This document shows, in pieces, positions 8,457-41,412 of a stretch of 51,975 bases of DNA. Under the pieces are notes generated by a model. It saw only the letters and a program-made list of their open reading frames with translations, ran no database searches and was not told where the DNA came from. Within the stretch, counting starts at the first letter, position 1. Each line of letters starts with the position of its first letter. Origin of the DNA: Acidobacteriota bacterium. GTDB lineage: Bacteria; Acidobacteriota; Blastocatellia; Chloracidobacteriales; Chloracidobacteriaceae. A program made the position numbers and the translations under genes. The stretch covers positions 1 to 51,975 of the forward strand of contig JACQXX010000087.1 in NCBI GenBank assembly GCA_016208495.1, given 5' to 3'.

Positions 8457-9533
8457 TTAGCTTGGAACCGGCATATCTTCGTCAACCCATTCCTGATACC
8501 GAATCATATCCGCCCCAGAGAATCGTTTTAAAAGCTCAGGTCTATCCAAAAGCTGCCCAGCTCCGACCACCACTGCTTCCATCGGGTTCGACGCCCGCAT
8601 GGCCGGTAATCCAAGTTCAAGGTGAACCCGCCGATAAAAGTCTCGAAGCAGTGACCCGCCGCCAGCCAGAGTTACACCAGTTCGATGAATATCAACGGCT
8701 ACGGCTGGTTTACTTGACTCAATGACCTGTCTGATTCCTTCGATGATGGTGTCGAGGGTATGGTCGAGAGCTTCAACCACTTCGCTTTGCAATAATGTCA
8801 ATTCACGAACTTTATAGTTGGTGAGGTTTTTCCCGGTGACCAGCATTGACGCTTCGTTTTCCTGTGGAATGGCTGAGCCAAGGTTGATCTTGATTTGTTC
8901 CGCCGATTGTTCGTCAATCACCAACTTATGTTTGCGGTGCAGGTATTCAACAATATCCTGGGTCATGCGATTTCCGGCAATTTCAAGCGATTTTGAAGCG
9001 ATAATTCCAGTGGTACTGACAATTGTGATGTTGGTTGTGCCACCACCGATATCAACCAGAAGATGGGCTTGAGGGCTGCGAAACATCACCTCAGAGCCGA
9101 CTGCCGCCGCCAGTCCTTCGTCAATTAAGAACACTTTGTTCGCCCCAATACTATAGGCCGCATTGCGGAGCGCCCGACGTTCGGTTTGAGTGGCTGAACT
9201 GGGAATACTCACCACCAGTTTGCAGTATCGGCGTGATTCGCGTTTACAGGCGGCGTGAAAGAAATTCCGAAGCATTTTTTCCGCCAGATCATAGTCGGCA
9301 ATGGTTCCATCCTTCATCGGACGATGAACCACGGTGTCGTATGGCTCGCGGCCAAGCATCGCAATGGCCCGTCGCCCAACCGCGACAACGTTCCCCGTAT
9401 CCCGATTAATGGCAATCGCTGATGGCTCATTGAGAATAATCCCATGGCCACGGGAGTAAATCAGGGTATTGGCCGTACCGAGGTCGATTGCAACCCCGCT
9501 GACAAAAAAATTCCGAATCGATTCCCACCACAT
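8457..9533 (-). CDS. mreB: Rod shape-determining protein MreB
   Basis: 358 residues, a usual MreB length, starting MWWESIRNFFVSGVAIDLGTA. Actin-fold nucleotide sites are intact: phosphate-1 DLGTANTLIYS (about residue 17), phosphate-2 DIGGGTTNITIVS (about residue 167) and adenosine site LAGGGSLL (about residue 290). MreB filaments organise lateral peptidoglycan synthesis at the inner membrane, implying a rod-shaped cell. No mreC, mreD, pbp2 or rodA follows, so this is a detached mreB copy, perhaps a paralogue of one in a canonical cluster. The neighbouring GT9 gene converges on it. Confidence 0.93.
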   Translation of the reverse strand: MWWESIRNFFVSGVAIDLGTANTLIYSRGHGIILNEPSAIAINRDTGNVVAVGRRAIAMLGREPYDTVVHRPMKDGTIADYDLAEKMLRNFFHAACKRESRRYCKLVVSIPSSATQTERRALRNAAYSIGANKVFLIDEGLAAAVGSEVMFRSPQAHLLVDIGGGTTNITIVSTTGIIASKSLEIAGNRMTQDIVEYLHRKHKLVIDEQSAEQIKINLGSAIPQENEASMLVTGKNLTNYKVRELTLLQSEVVEALDHTLDTIIEGIRQVIESSKPAVAVDIHRTGVTLAGGGSLLRDFYRRVHLELGLPAMRASNPMEAVVVGAGQLLDRPELLKRFSGADMIRYQEWVDEDMPVPS

Positions 9534-9714: not shown

Positions 9715-10175
9715 TCATCCTATCTTCGGCGTGGAGACCCGGTCCTGGCTGGGCCGGGAGGAAACGCCGCTCCTTTTTGAGTTGATACGAAAGCGGGAAG
9801 AACGAATCCTTCCCACCCTCGATGTGATGTGAAGAGAGTACATCACGCACCGATTTGCATCGGGTAGTGCGTACCGGTCTAACTGTGACCGCCGACCGGA
9901 TTCGACTTCCTCTCGACCGGATTTGGGAAGGTTTGCCGTGACCGGCACTGGCACTGACTCCCATGCCTGTTTAACCTGTCACCGTAGGGCAGCGGACTGA
10001 GGCGGCATCCGCAGGTACCTGTATATTCTTCCCAATCGGTTCCCGTGATTTGCACGGGGGTCTGGTCAACCGGAGCTTGAGCCAATCTCCCCACACCGGC
10101 CATCCGTCAGGATGGCGTCGTGGCGACACAACTCAAGCTCGGCCCTTGAGGACCGAGTCTGTTGACTTACTTTTC
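9715..10175 (-). mobile_element. Structured GC-rich block: possible IS200/IS605-like remnant or structured RNA
   Basis: Several nested inverted repeats are visible. CGGCGT (9727-9732) pairs with ACGCCG (9764-9769) around an inner CCCGG/CCGGG stem. GAGCTTGAG near 10071 pairs with CTCAAGCTC near 10131, enclosing GCCATCC/GGATGGC. Read on the minus strand, the left-hand hairpin looks to me like the subterminal hairpin seen after tnpB genes in IS200/IS605-type elements, where an omega RNA overlaps the 3' end. No tnpA or tnpB coding sequence is present. This is inference from memory of such ends. A free-standing structured RNA is the alternative; RNase P, tmRNA and SRP RNA signatures were not seen. 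Confidence 0.35.
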
Positions 10176-10522: not shown

Positions 10523-11248
10523 TCAAACACCAAATCCGCGAACCCGTCGTGATCGAGTAACTGGAAAACTTGAATTCAATGGAAGACTCGTTTTCGGGGC
10601 CACCAGTTTTGACTGTGGTTCCTGGTTTGGCGGCGCCTCGGTTGCATCCGTTTCAGGTTGAGTTGGTTCGGATTGTTCTTCAAAGTGCTTCAGGATTTGG
10701 GGGCGAGCCTGCTTGACCGCTGCCACCAGACCAAGATAGACACTTTGAAATTCGTCAAATCCAACCTGGGGATCCGTTCGAACAGAAAACTTAAACCCAA
10801 TATCATCTTCTTCATCAATAAAAAATGCCCCCACTGCCAGTTGATCGTTGAGGCTGAGTAAAGTCTTAAAAAGTAGAGTTGGATTGGCTATTTTTTTGGT
10901 ATTTCCAAATTTGTAGGCATAAAAGCCCAGCATTTTCTTCGATGGCATGTTGACCAAAACCAGGTCCACCACCTCTTTTCCACTCTGATAATGTGTCACC
11001 AGGGTGCTGGTATTCCCTTGTCGTTTTTCACTCTTGACATTCATTCGTTTCAAATATCCCTGCAGGGTATCAACCAGGGTTGGAGCCGGTTTAGGGACAG
11101 TCGGGGTTGATTGACCGGAAGTTGTACTGGTTGCCGGTGAGGTCGTTTTTTTCTTGGGCGGCGGAGCCTCCTGGGCAGAGACCGCGGGTCCTGTCAGGAA
11201 ACAGAAAAGCAGAGGCAACAAGGCAGATGCAAAATGGGTCAAGCGCAT
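10523..11248 (-). CDS. Secreted YbjN / type III chaperone-like domain protein
   Basis: 241 residues from ATG 11248, which gives a clean signal peptide: MRLTHFASALL, hydrophobic core, then AVSAQE for cleavage. The longer frame to 11386 would bury it behind 46 unlikely residues. After a Pro/Thr/Lys-rich linker comes an alpha/beta domain (about residues 55-190) with LVDTLQGYLKRMNVKSE, LVLVNMPSKKMLGFY and FFIDEEDDIGFKFSV, resembling YbjN/Tir-chaperone folds. The acidic, Pro-rich tail ends RVRGFGV. Location is inferred as periplasmic or secreted. The family has no firm biochemical role. It is divergent from the SprT-like gene. Confidence 0.6.
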   Translation of the reverse strand: MRLTHFASALLPLLFCFLTGPAVSAQEAPPPKKKTTSPATSTTSGQSTPTVPKPAPTLVDTLQGYLKRMNVKSEKRQGNTSTLVTHYQSGKEVVDLVLVNMPSKKMLGFYAYKFGNTKKIANPTLLFKTLLSLNDQLAVGAFFIDEEDDIGFKFSVRTDPQVGFDEFQSVYLGLVAAVKQARPQILKHFEEQSEPTQPETDATEAPPNQEPQSKLVAPKTSLPLNSSFPVTRSRRVRGFGV

Positions 11249-11505
11249 AAAAAGAGTGATGGACAAGTTCGAGTTTGGTGCGGTGGCTGGAGGAATTGAG
11301 GGGATTGAGGGGTATGAAAAACCCGAAGCCCGGTTGCAAAGTAGCATGCTCTGGAAAAGGCTGGCAAGGATTCTTTTCCTGACCAAAATATGCTCAAATA
11401 GGGCGCCGTAATCACCGTCACTCCATTCAATTCCATGAAGAAAAAGTGCTGGTGGTTGAATTCAATATCACGATTTGAAAGTGATTTCCTTTCTTACCCA
11501 AATCC

Positions 11506-37628: not shown

Positions 37629-37654
37629 TGATTGACTACTCGCTACTCGCTTAG
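37629..37654. repeat. Short ACTCGCT heptamer tract
   Basis: GACTACTCGCTACTCGCT lies upstream of the sedolisin start and directly abuts the TTAG at the left edge of MITE copy 2. It is the same family as 14903-15118. Confidence 0.75.
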
Positions 37655-37994
37655 GGAGCGTTAAAAAATAAGTTCCTGGGAGCGCGGGCGTCCTAATTAT
37701 GTCCAGGTTTTGGTTTTGCACCGCGAAGCGTTGCAGTTCGGATAGCCGGTCGGTTGGCCGCTTTGGGCCTACCACCGGGTCCAAAGGCCACCCCTTGTTG
37801 CTCCCCTGCTTCGCCCGCGCCCCGCAGGGGCGCGGGCGAAGCAGGGGAGCAATGGAGAGAACGAACCTGTTCCCGGTGGTAGCTCCCAAAACCTCGCAAC
37901 CACCGGCTATCTGAACGGCAGCCTTTCAGGATGCTCAATCCAAACTCCTGATTCCCAAAAGAAAACGGGAAGTTGATTTTTTACAGTCCCTTAC
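37651..37994. mobile_element. MITE-like element, copy 2 of 3 (336 bp)
   Basis: The element spans 37655-37990, flanked by TTAG on the left and TTAC on the right. It has the same ends and interior as copies 1 and 3, with a full central palindrome CTTCGCCCGCGCCCC/GGGGCGCGGGCGAAG near 37808-37845. It ends three bases from the stop codon of the IPT-domain gene. Confidence 0.85.
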
Positions 37995-39267: not shown

Positions 39268-39346
39268 ATCTGGGGCTGAGGGCGGAAGAAATCGGACTGA
39301 AGAAATCGGACTGAAGAAGTTGGGCTGAAGACTTCGGGCTCGGGGC
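39268..39346. repeat. GGGCTGA-type heptamer array, part left of MITE copy 3
   Basis: Units such as GGGCTGAGGGCGGAAG, CGGACTGAAGAAAT and GGGCTGAAGACTT run up to the TAAG that borders the MITE. The array resumes on the far side at 39684, so the element split it. Confidence 0.8.
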
Positions 39347-39685
39347 TAAGGGAGCGTTAAAAAATAAGTTCCTGGGGCGCGTTCCGCCACGTCCAGGTTT
39401 TGGTTTTGCACCGCGAAGCGTTGCGGTTCGGATAGCCGGTCGGTTGGCCGCTTTGGGCCTACCACCGGATCCACGGGCCGTCTCCTTGTTGCTCCCCGCT
39501 TCACCCGCGCCCCGCAGGGGCGCGGGTGAAGCGGGGGGAGCACTGGAGAGGACGAACCTGTTCCCGGTGGTAGCTCCCAAAACCTCGCAACCACCGGCTA
39601 TCCGAACGGCAGCCTTTCAGGATGCTCAATCCAAATTCCTGATTCCCAAACGAAAACGGGAAGTTGATTTTTTACAGTCCCTAAG
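39347..39685. mobile_element. MITE-like element, copy 3 of 3 (331 bp), inserted within a heptamer array
   Basis: The element spans 39351-39681 with TAAG on both sides (39347-39350, 39682-39685). Sequence is close to copy 2 throughout, including the central GC-rich palindrome near 39504-39538. GGGCTGA-type heptamers lie on both sides. Confidence 0.88.
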
Positions 39686-39818: not shown

Positions 39819-41393
39819 TTATTGATTCGACTTTCTGAAAATGACTTTGAGCGATTGTCGCCACTGCTGGCCAATTCCAATGATTTGAATCGGAACCGCT
39901 GGGTCAATCCAGGAAAGGGAATCCTGGGTTGTCGGGTGAAGGTCCAGCATTGGTGCGATTAAGCAAAGCACTGGTGGCAGTGATCGTGAAATGTTGAGCT
40001 GTGCAAAAGCCGGGTGACGATGGATATCTCCTCGGTGTAAGTGGTTTTGCACTCGATACCAGTATTCGAGCCCTTGCCACAGGTGTTGGGGATCCGCGCT
40101 GGCTTTTAATTCAAGGATGGCAAGTTGACCATTTTCACGTACTCCGAGCAGGTCAACAAACCCACCGTCTGTCAGATTAAAAGCCGCCACCTGTTCGGCA
40201 ACCGTGTGTGGTTGGAGGGACGAGTCAAGGTGTGAAATTTCACGTTGGACAATGCTTTCCAGCCAGCGTTCGGCCTGCAATCGGTACAGCGGATGTCTAT
40301 GATCAACTGGTTGTCCAGTGCGATGTTTGCCAAGCAATTGGACCAGATTGGCAAACCGTTTGTGTGAAGCTGAGGTCAACTGGCGCAACGGGTGATGAAG
40401 GGCGCTGATTCCAAACCGAAGTTGAGCCGGTGAAACAGGTGTTTCTCGAACCAACCGGGCAAACTCAAGGCCATTCCACCGAATGGAAATCCAGGGGTGT
40501 GAGAGTGAATGGCAACTGGTGATAGTGGTCGGAGAAAGATCAACGATACGGTTGAGCTGGTCGCGCTCATCTTCAGTGAGTGGCGGGATGGCTCCGCCGG
40601 ATGCCTCGAAAAATTGGTTGACCGGTCCAGTAAAGAGTGCTGGTTGATCTGGCGGGAAACTGATCGGGCGAGCCGCAGTGCAGGTGGCATCAAGTTCAAA
40701 AAGCTCTAGTTTCAGTCCGCGAATCATGGTGATTTGCCGACAGATATGTTCGATACACACCCGAGGCGCAAAAATCAGTGCTCTGGTGATGGGAACTCCG
40801 GTTTTTAACAACTCAGTCGCCATTTCCAAAACGGCGGCAACCACCTGATGTTGTGCTGGTTTGAGTTCGCCGGGGTTGATCCCAATCGCCACCCACTGGT
40901 TGGTTTGAGCGGTTATCCAGATCCGGGAAAAATAAACTGAACGCTGACCAGTTGGGGACTGGCGTGCACTGGCCCGATGAATGTGAACTGAAGGGAAAGT
41001 TCGCTTGATCAATTTGAGCAGACGGTCATGAAATTCGGTCCGTCGAGGGTGAGCCAGGATTGGAAGACTGTCGGCGGGATCAATCTGAATCAAAAGCAAC
41101 CCGGTAAGGTGCCCACTGTGTCGTGAAATCTGAATCTCTATCCGGTTGAGAGCCGACGTAAAACTGACCACCTGCCAGCTTTGGGCATAACTTTCACCCC
41201 AAAATAAAACAATCAACTTGTGGTACTTCACCTCGCAGGTCACTGTACCAGGCAGTTGTTCAAACTGGTGGATCCGATCCGGGAGCGTGAGTCTCAGGTG
41301 TAAGCAATTTCCTTCAGCGGCCTGTGTCAGCCGGAGCAGGTTCAGTTCAAGTTGATATTTGGCCGTTTCAAGATCTGGTTTCAACCCCGTCAT
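39819..41393 (-). CDS. Protein with C-terminal RecB/Cas4-like PD-(D/E)XK nuclease domain
   Basis: 524 residues; GGAGT lies upstream of ATG 41393 with long spacing. Residues 1-370 are not recognised (LPGTVTCEVKYHKLIVLFWGE and SVYFSRIWITAQTNQWVAIG suggest beta-rich folds). The C-terminal domain has D414 in GFVDLLGV, E428-x-K430 in LAILELKAS, and a QhxxY-like Q440-G-L-E-Y444 in LWQGLEYW. Those spacings match the RecB/Cas4 branch of PD-(D/E)XK nucleases, which cut DNA. All three catalytic positions are present, so activity is plausible. No helicase, methylase or defence gene is adjacent; downstream lies a heptamer array and upstream a lytic transglycosylase. Confidence 0.6.
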   Translation of the reverse strand: MTGLKPDLETAKYQLELNLLRLTQAAEGNCLHLRLTLPDRIHQFEQLPGTVTCEVKYHKLIVLFWGESYAQSWQVVSFTSALNRIEIQISRHSGHLTGLLLIQIDPADSLPILAHPRRTEFHDRLLKLIKRTFPSVHIHRASARQSPTGQRSVYFSRIWITAQTNQWVAIGINPGELKPAQHQVVAAVLEMATELLKTGVPITRALIFAPRVCIEHICRQITMIRGLKLELFELDATCTAARPISFPPDQPALFTGPVNQFFEASGGAIPPLTEDERDQLNRIVDLSPTTITSCHSLSHPWISIRWNGLEFARLVRETPVSPAQLRFGISALHHPLRQLTSASHKRFANLVQLLGKHRTGQPVDHRHPLYRLQAERWLESIVQREISHLDSSLQPHTVAEQVAAFNLTDGGFVDLLGVRENGQLAILELKASADPQHLWQGLEYWYRVQNHLHRGDIHRHPAFAQLNISRSLPPVLCLIAPMLDLHPTTQDSLSWIDPAVPIQIIGIGQQWRQSLKVIFRKSNQ

Positions 41394-41412
41394 TTGCCAT
41401 TATGACTCCTTC

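Follow-up and report, generated by a model that had tools for sequence, protein, structure and literature searches.

The gene analysed here lies on the reverse strand of a 51,975-nt stretch of contig JACQXX010000087.1 from an Acidobacteriota bacterium (assembly GCA_016208495.1); the whole stretch is called the window below. Its reading frame is uninterrupted and starts with ATG, and the parts into which the encoded protein was divided are listed in Table 1. Among 13 family members that were measured, the mass ranged from 49.8 to 62.5 kDa. On the same strand, genes for a lytic transglycosylase, a zinc-ribbon protein and GreA are found upstream and a gene for a protein without a Pfam match is found downstream; a PADLOC search of these four neighbours gave no match. 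An AAGGAG sequence (window 41391-41411) precedes an out-of-frame ATG, the first base of which lies seven positions before the ATG of the nuclease gene. A MITE-like repeat of about 350 bp with inner palindromes is present at 37634-37991 and 39330-39682, one copy being just behind the nuclease gene, and its 292-bp core has at least 84 matches at 40 or more places, approximately, in the same genome (40 of 236 first-look candidates were scored).

Table 1 Features of the nuclease gene and of the protein it encodes (window coordinates)
Feature	Position	Strand	Basis
Whole gene: 524-aa, 59.3-kDa putative two-module NucS-like nuclease	39819..41393	(-)	ORF, translation, calculated mass, full-length relatives
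Beta-domain, residues 31-103, seven predicted strands	41085..41303	(-)	AlphaFold secondary structure; YojF match
First predicted PD-(D/E)XK fold (pseudonuclease), residues 114-246	40656..41054	(-)	PaqCI match, no conserved catalytic residues
Linker QPALF, residues 250-254, resembling a beta-clamp motif	40632..40646	(-)	Low-confidence linker in AlphaFold model
Middle part, residues 268-357: predicted helix, small beta-sheet, helix	40323..40592	(-)	AlphaFold of residues 262-524 alone
Second, putatively catalytic PD-(D/E)XK domain of NucS type, residues 368-522	39828..40292	(-)	EndoMS 5gkj_B, 5gke_A and 2vld_A superpositions
Active-site stretch E375, D414, E428, K430, Q440, Y444	40062..40271	(-)	Invariant in 103/103; D/E/K against NucS D160/E174/K176

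Conservation was assessed in 103 distinct sequences of at least 400 aa (window protein included), after seven loci with shorter ORFs were removed and identical proteins were merged. D414, E428, K430, Q440 and Y444 were invariant in the whole set, and the same was true of E375, which is a further residue of the site, and of Q401, W445 and F463. The columns of Q440, Y444 and W445 are biased in 75 of the 103 sequences, since Q..YW was part of the pattern by which these were collected; all 26 sequences from a whole-protein search keep the same residues. The exact string D-x13-E-x-K-x9-Q-x3-Y was present in 66/66 rows of alignment A3 (window included) and in 23/23 rows of alignment A5, which represents one Blastocatellia-side family, and it occurred in one of 13,200 composition-preserving shuffles. 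The motif D414, E428-x-K430, Q440-x3-Y444, which a preliminary description had noticed in the window sequence, was thus confirmed residue by residue and is conserved more than chance would allow.

The structure of the whole protein was predicted by AlphaFold from the 66-sequence alignment (pLDDT 88.2, pTM 0.77), and residues 262-524 were also modelled alone (pLDDT 91.5, pTM 0.89). In the latter model the domain carrying the motif residues is predicted to adopt a PD-(D/E)XK fold. Fold assignments were based on VIA-align, and according to the tool's own note a Z score below 8 may reflect a common arrangement only. The best superposition of the catalytic domain was with EndoMS (5gkj_B, Z 12.2, 2.1 Å, 108 residues), followed by 5gke_A (Z 11.4) and 2vld_A (Z 11.3), and these three NucS/EndoMS matches had rmsd values of 2.1-2.6 Å across 107-115 residues. 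The next folds were XisH (Z 8.6), SduA (7.7, with 20% identity across 131 residues), PaqCI (7.7), Bacillus cereus Shedu (7.0), Upx (6.8) and Card1 (6.3). When the PDB was searched by Foldseek with the C-half model, EndoMS took ranks 1 and 2 at a best E of 3.0e-3, which is not significant; below E 0.001 Foldseek gave no match for either model in the PDB and none for the whole model among viral models. The preliminary description had compared the motif with active RecB/Cas4 nucleases, and of this comparison the RecB-type site stood, whereas the nearest fold found was that of NucS/EndoMS and not of Cas4. Cas4 proteins carry conserved Fe-S cluster cysteines; cysteines of this type are not conserved in the present family (best Cys column 15/103).

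Curated families do not claim the window protein, and its sequence similarity to NucS is weak. Single-sequence searches of Pfam, NCBIfam, PHROGs and the PDB with the window protein gave no significant match, the scores being 12.8 bits against Pfam NucS_C (cut-off 24, E 0.12) and 13.3 bits against NCBIfam NucS (cut-off 216, E 0.032). With the whole-protein profile, NucS was the first match in the PDB (E 0.077) and Card1 the second (0.12), whereas with the C-half profile Card1 came first (E 8.7e-4) and NucS behind it (0.026). In the profile alignment, which is weak (E 0.077), D414, E428 and K430 fall without gaps on D160, E174 and K176 of Pyrococcus abyssi NucS, whose site has been reported to include also K44, E127, Q187 and Y191 (PMC7343888). 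Judged by their order and by the Q-Y spacing, E375, Q440 and Y444 are probably the counterparts of E127, Q187 and Y191, and six of the seven listed NucS residues would then have a counterpart here, K44 being the seventh. The D-E, E-K and Q-Y spacings (14, 2 and 4) are shared by both proteins, whereas K-Q is 10 here and 11 in NucS, and E-D is 39 here and 33 in NucS. The C-terminal domain is therefore predicted to combine the core fold of the PD-(D/E)XK superfamily with D and E-x-K, and it appears to share with NucS a catalytic domain of RecB type that bears E, D, E-x-K, Q and Y.

The other known nucleases resemble the family in part. Card1 and Can2 (6wxw, 8q3y) are CARF-domain CRISPR effectors, and Card1 heads the PDB sequence matches obtained with the C-half profile, but its structural match is lower than that of EndoMS. 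The XisH family (2okf, 2inb) has a compact PD-(D/E)XK fold that matches both modules of the window protein at Z 8.0-8.6, while XisH chains are single-domain and about 130 residues long. The PD-(D/E)XK domain of Shedu SduA (8ps5, 8ti9) reaches Z 7.0-7.7, again lower than EndoMS, and no defence context was seen here. DUF4263 is the profile of the Shedu (SduA) family, and it was absent among the 11 Pfam families listed for the 66 A3 rows. The PADLOC models PDC-S11 matched 57 of the 66 A3 rows, and PDC-S18 was also reported by PADLOC. PDC-S11 was rejected as the identity of the window protein because its match there spans residues 370-458 only.

The preliminary description had left the N-terminal part of about 370 residues as unknown, and this no longer holds, since a beta-domain and a second, degenerate PD-(D/E)XK fold are predicted in it by AlphaFold and structure search. 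The structure of this half was taken from the whole-protein model. Residues 11-112 match YojF (Z 9.1), and the first nuclease fold matches the nuclease domain of PaqCI (8epx, 8em1), a Type IIS restriction endonuclease, with Z 9.7 and 3.3 Å across 120 residues; further matches were XisH (Z 8.1 and 8.0), Nt.BspD6I (7.8) and Can2 (6.7). The order of a beta-domain followed by a nuclease domain, known from NucS/EndoMS, is also seen in this half, residues 6-237 matching whole EndoMS with Z 9.4 across 184 residues. The rmsd of this match is 16 Å, which indicates that the beta-domain and the N-terminal nuclease fold are placed differently from those of EndoMS.

The first fold is probably catalytically dead. 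No conserved acidic residue or Lys was found in residues 104-250, where the best acidic column reached 46/66 and the best Lys column 17/66, compared with 66/66 for the catalytic columns of the C-terminal domain in A3. A D-x8-20-[D/E]xK-type string occurs in 16 of 66 N-halves, at no conserved position. The residues that are conserved in this half of A3 are R118 (63 of 66), R157 (63), W191 (64), P210 (65) and R220 (61), the window protein itself deviating with M191 and Q220. By counting along the strands, which is uncertain by about two residues and is not a superposition, R157 lies near the position of the catalytic Asp and A/V169-A/G171 near that of E-x-K. Profile comparisons between the N-half and the C-half gave probabilities of only 0.2-3.7% and thus no sequence kinship, so a duplication would have to be deduced from the predicted structure. 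The architecture of one live and one dead nuclease fold is likewise a prediction of the structural model.

NucS/EndoMS has approximately 250 residues with one N-terminal DNA-binding domain and one nuclease domain, and acts as a homodimer that cleaves both strands where bases are mismatched, whereas the present protein has 524 residues and two predicted nuclease folds. One tentative reading is a single-chain, NucS/EndoMS-like pseudo-dimer of two fused modules, the first catalytically dead, in which both would hold damaged or mismatched DNA and only one strand would be nicked. If this doubtful reading were true, a double-strand-breaking repair enzyme would have been turned into a nickase that coexists with MutS-MutL across much of a phylum. 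Should the protein be a repair nuclease in which one site is active and the other dead, nature would have provided a means of testing what makes NucS-type enzymes nick DNA in one case and break both strands in another.

A fairly unlikely alternative is a true mismatch endonuclease, a divergent NucS/EndoMS serving as a second mismatch-repair system and activated by the sliding clamp through a QxxLF-like linker. The NucS-type site and catalytic fold speak for it, and so does the QPALF peptide of the window protein. Q250 and L253 did not vary among 24 class members but did so once more sequences were included, and QPALF as a beta-clamp motif was therefore kept as a lead only: QxxL[FL] was found at the linker position in 19 of 103 sequences, and QxxLF was found there in 11 and missing in 92, as it was anywhere in the 23 rows of A5. 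It has been reported that actinobacterial NucS binds the clamp through a C-terminal peptide, [E/K][L/Y][T/R]LF (PMC8228993); in contrast, a NucS-type clamp motif was found in the last 40 residues of none of the 103 sequences here. The published account of DV-NucS, an enzyme discussed below, also argues against this reading, as it lists cutting at abasic sites and uracil and suggests that cleavage of mismatches may depend on partners (PMC10140301).

The ordinary mismatch repair genes weigh against it as well. MutS (1003.6 bits) and MutL (545.8 bits) are both over the cut-off in the same genome, where no NucS_C match was found at E 0.001, and MutS is over the cut-off in 53 of 58 genomes, this one included. 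The main job of NucS is thus already taken. The nuclease does not replace MutS-MutL, and a nick-making or lesion-directed role would fit better than bulk mismatch repair. In the proteomes surveyed in PMC5290159, bacterial NucS was limited to Actinobacteria and Deinococcus-Thermus, and 28 organisms were reported to carry both NucS and MutS-MutL. Separate proteins of about 350-420 aa with a NucS_C domain (PF01939) were also noticed in other genomes of the phylum, for example at L156-L159 (17 of 149 over the cut-off).

The gene belongs to the chromosome of its lineage as far as its distribution indicates. Of 58 genomes of relatives in the class, the genome of the window included, 55 contain one match each, and the three without a match are drafts of 200, 480 and 520 contigs. 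In a first sample of the phylum 44 of 149 genomes matched, and with the family profile 141 of 395 phylum genomes matched, 122 strongly (E 1.6e-45 or better) and 19 weakly (3e-8 or worse). Among the matches listed, the weak ones fall in the C-terminal domain, and all 54 listed genomes from the same genome, family, order and class match strongly; the listing covers 20 of the 254 genomes without a match, so that a member of the class may be among the others. A tree was built from 39 sequences, namely the window protein and those of 38 class loci, after two of the 40 that had been fetched were dropped for their short ORFs. Each of the seven multi-member families lies on one side of a branch, and the family labels require eight changes, which is the minimum, compared with 26.9 in shuffles, none of 200 being as low. 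No match to the window protein was obtained at E 0.01 in 72,556 plasmid records or in 50,697 phage records. These results point to apparently vertical inheritance within Acidobacteriota and to a chromosomal gene rather than a mobile defence gene.

An apparent restriction to Acidobacteriota is suggested by a scan of named genomes with a single pattern, in which 80 of 85 relatives were kept and 79 of the 80 records were titled Acidobacteriota (Blastocatellia, Terriglobia, Bryobacterales, Acidiferrales and others). Locus L059, titled Acidimicrobiia, has the gene together with neighbour clusters common to acidobacterial loci and is probably a mislabelled bin. A contig from a viral collection, L115 (1-11512), has the nuclease gene at its end, then host-like ORFs and then Mu-like phage ORFs, as judged by eye from the translations, an order that suggests a prophage with some adjoining host DNA.

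The neighbourhood survey proposed in the preliminary description, which had seen no defence or repair partner beside the gene, showed the gene among housekeeping genes, with a partner that changes by clade and with one HNH nuclease among the recurrent neighbours. In 18 of 40 class loci truB is downstream on the same strand, the gap up to the tblastn match having a median of 12 bp, and prkA (16), DUF444 (14) and spoVR (9) are also found in these 40 loci. The order nuclease, truB, prkA, DUF444, often followed by spoVR, recurs at L117, L119, L120, L126, L138 and other class loci, and in one family a topA-like gene, named by eye, stands ahead of the nuclease, truB, prkA order. In 67 other loci the neighbours were a small upstream protein (14), a convergent HNH gene (14), comF (13), an upstream metallophosphatase (13), queA (11, within 1.5 kb upstream) and dinB (9), the names being taken from Pfam. 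Among the ten recurrent neighbours that were scanned with Pfam, no known defence family was found by its name. In one family 20 of the 28 loci examined have a GDSL lipase gene, confirmed by Pfam in the three cases scanned, immediately upstream (18 of 20 in genus g13 and two of two in g126, that is 20 of 22, the other six family loci being without it); 34 such genomes were found in the phylum search. The lipase gene is not beside the window gene.

These neighbours invite the reading of an RNA-processing nuclease, or one for quality control of tRNA or rRNA, which we consider improbable. It would be supported by the close truB and queA genes and, in two of the 40 class loci, by a gene that resembles rsmB as judged by eye. 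However, the neighbours vary by clade, the topA-like gene, dinB and the GDSL lipase genes being among them, and thus look like local operon history, and the nearest catalytic folds are those of DNA nucleases.

The weakest reading, a nuclease that on its own would act against phages or plasmids in the manner of Shedu (SduA) or the PDC-S11 candidates, and in which the N-terminal module would sense invading DNA and the C-terminal domain would cut it, is quite unlikely: the PDC-S11 matches, the Z scores of SduA and Upx and the first place of the CRISPR-linked Card1 in the C-half search mean that the domain may be akin to defence nucleases, but Shedu is a patchy, horizontally moving defence gene, whereas the present gene is found once in nearly every genome of the class, follows the family labels, has housekeeping neighbours elsewhere, is without plasmid, phage or PADLOC matches (the last in the four window neighbours) and encodes a domain that EndoMS fits better.

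A protein that may belong to the same family has been described from Antarctic Dry Valley metagenomes (PMC10140301, 2023). Beside an ordinary NucS cluster that includes Acidobacteria among its phyla, a 'Cluster 2 NucS' was reported there, some members of which exceed 500 aa and have an N-terminal extension, with the last 200 residues NucS-like, and all four contigs that were inspected had a lysophospholipase gene immediately upstream. One expressed member, DV-NucS (58.8 kDa; Ga0136640_100017415), cleaved duplexes that carried an abasic site or a uracil opposite A or T, and it also acted on single strands; the incubations lasted 18 h and no active-site mutant was included (PMC10140301). Its size, NucS-like C-terminus and N-terminal extension, together with the upstream lipase gene of one clade here, suggest that DV-NucS may be of the same family. 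This GDSL clade aligns with the family of the window protein over 483 columns at probability 100, and Pfam NucS_C matches 12 of the 23 A5 rows (best E 9.7e-4) and NCBIfam NucS 17 of 23 (best 1.2e-5). Several points differ: the extension is given as 100 residues for Cluster 2, whereas the present family exceeds NucS in length by about 270 residues; Cluster 2 was without UniRef50 members, whereas the present family occurs in public genomes; and the Pfam NucS E value is 3.5e-6 for DV-NucS but at best 9.7e-4 in A5 (PMC10140301). In the sections of that paper used for this comparison, Cluster 2 is described with no mention of a dead second fold or of a tie to a single phylum. Compared by description, DV-NucS is somewhat more likely than not to belong with the GDSL clade.

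Taken together, the gene probably encodes a chromosomal, vertically inherited DNA-repair nuclease of Acidobacteriota that is related to NucS/EndoMS through its catalytic domain, with a dead N-terminal half holding the DNA or lesion, and that acts on damaged or mismatched DNA. A DNA-repair role is more likely than defence because of the occurrence in 55 of 58 genomes, the tree, the housekeeping neighbours, the lack of plasmid and phage matches in the records searched, and the presence of MutS and MutL. Of the two roles offered in the preliminary description, a stand-alone repair nuclease is therefore favoured by the invariant site, the predicted NucS-type fold, the single copy per genome and the tree following family labels, while the anti-mobile-element role found no support. 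Our confidence in the repair explanation is reduced by the Card1 sequence result and by the mismatches with the DV-NucS paper, and the NucS scores far below the cut-offs, the RNA genes among many neighbours (truB, queA), the missing C-terminal clamp motif and the MutS and MutL already present also count against it.

If the repair explanation is right, D414, E428 and K430 would hold the metal ions as in NucS, and the C-terminal module would use the metal-dependent E/D/ExK/QxxxY chemistry of RecB/NucS nucleases to cut a strand of DNA. The beta-domain and the dead PD-(D/E)XK fold, which make up the N-terminal module, would be the half that holds the DNA or the lesion. The substrate would most likely be DNA with damage (uracil, abasic sites) or mismatches, processed alongside the usual MutS-MutL pathway, and the question would then be why the lineage keeps a NucS-type enzyme beside MutS-MutL.

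Acidobacteriota are major soil bacteria, and the gene is near-universal yet unnamed in at least one class and common in others. No description of the two-fold architecture or of its status as an acidobacterial core gene was found in the literature titles and abstract openings scanned. The predicted dead second nuclease fold, the apparently vertical inheritance and the apparent restriction to one phylum are new here, the family having possibly been glimpsed once in metagenomes.

In another part of the window, a full-length HEARO RNA (100.4 bits) was found at 9901-10166 on the reverse strand, with a further ORF at 10523-11386. Beside it are a 116-aa edge ORF without a Pfam match and a 358-aa ORF (8457-9533) that encodes MreB.
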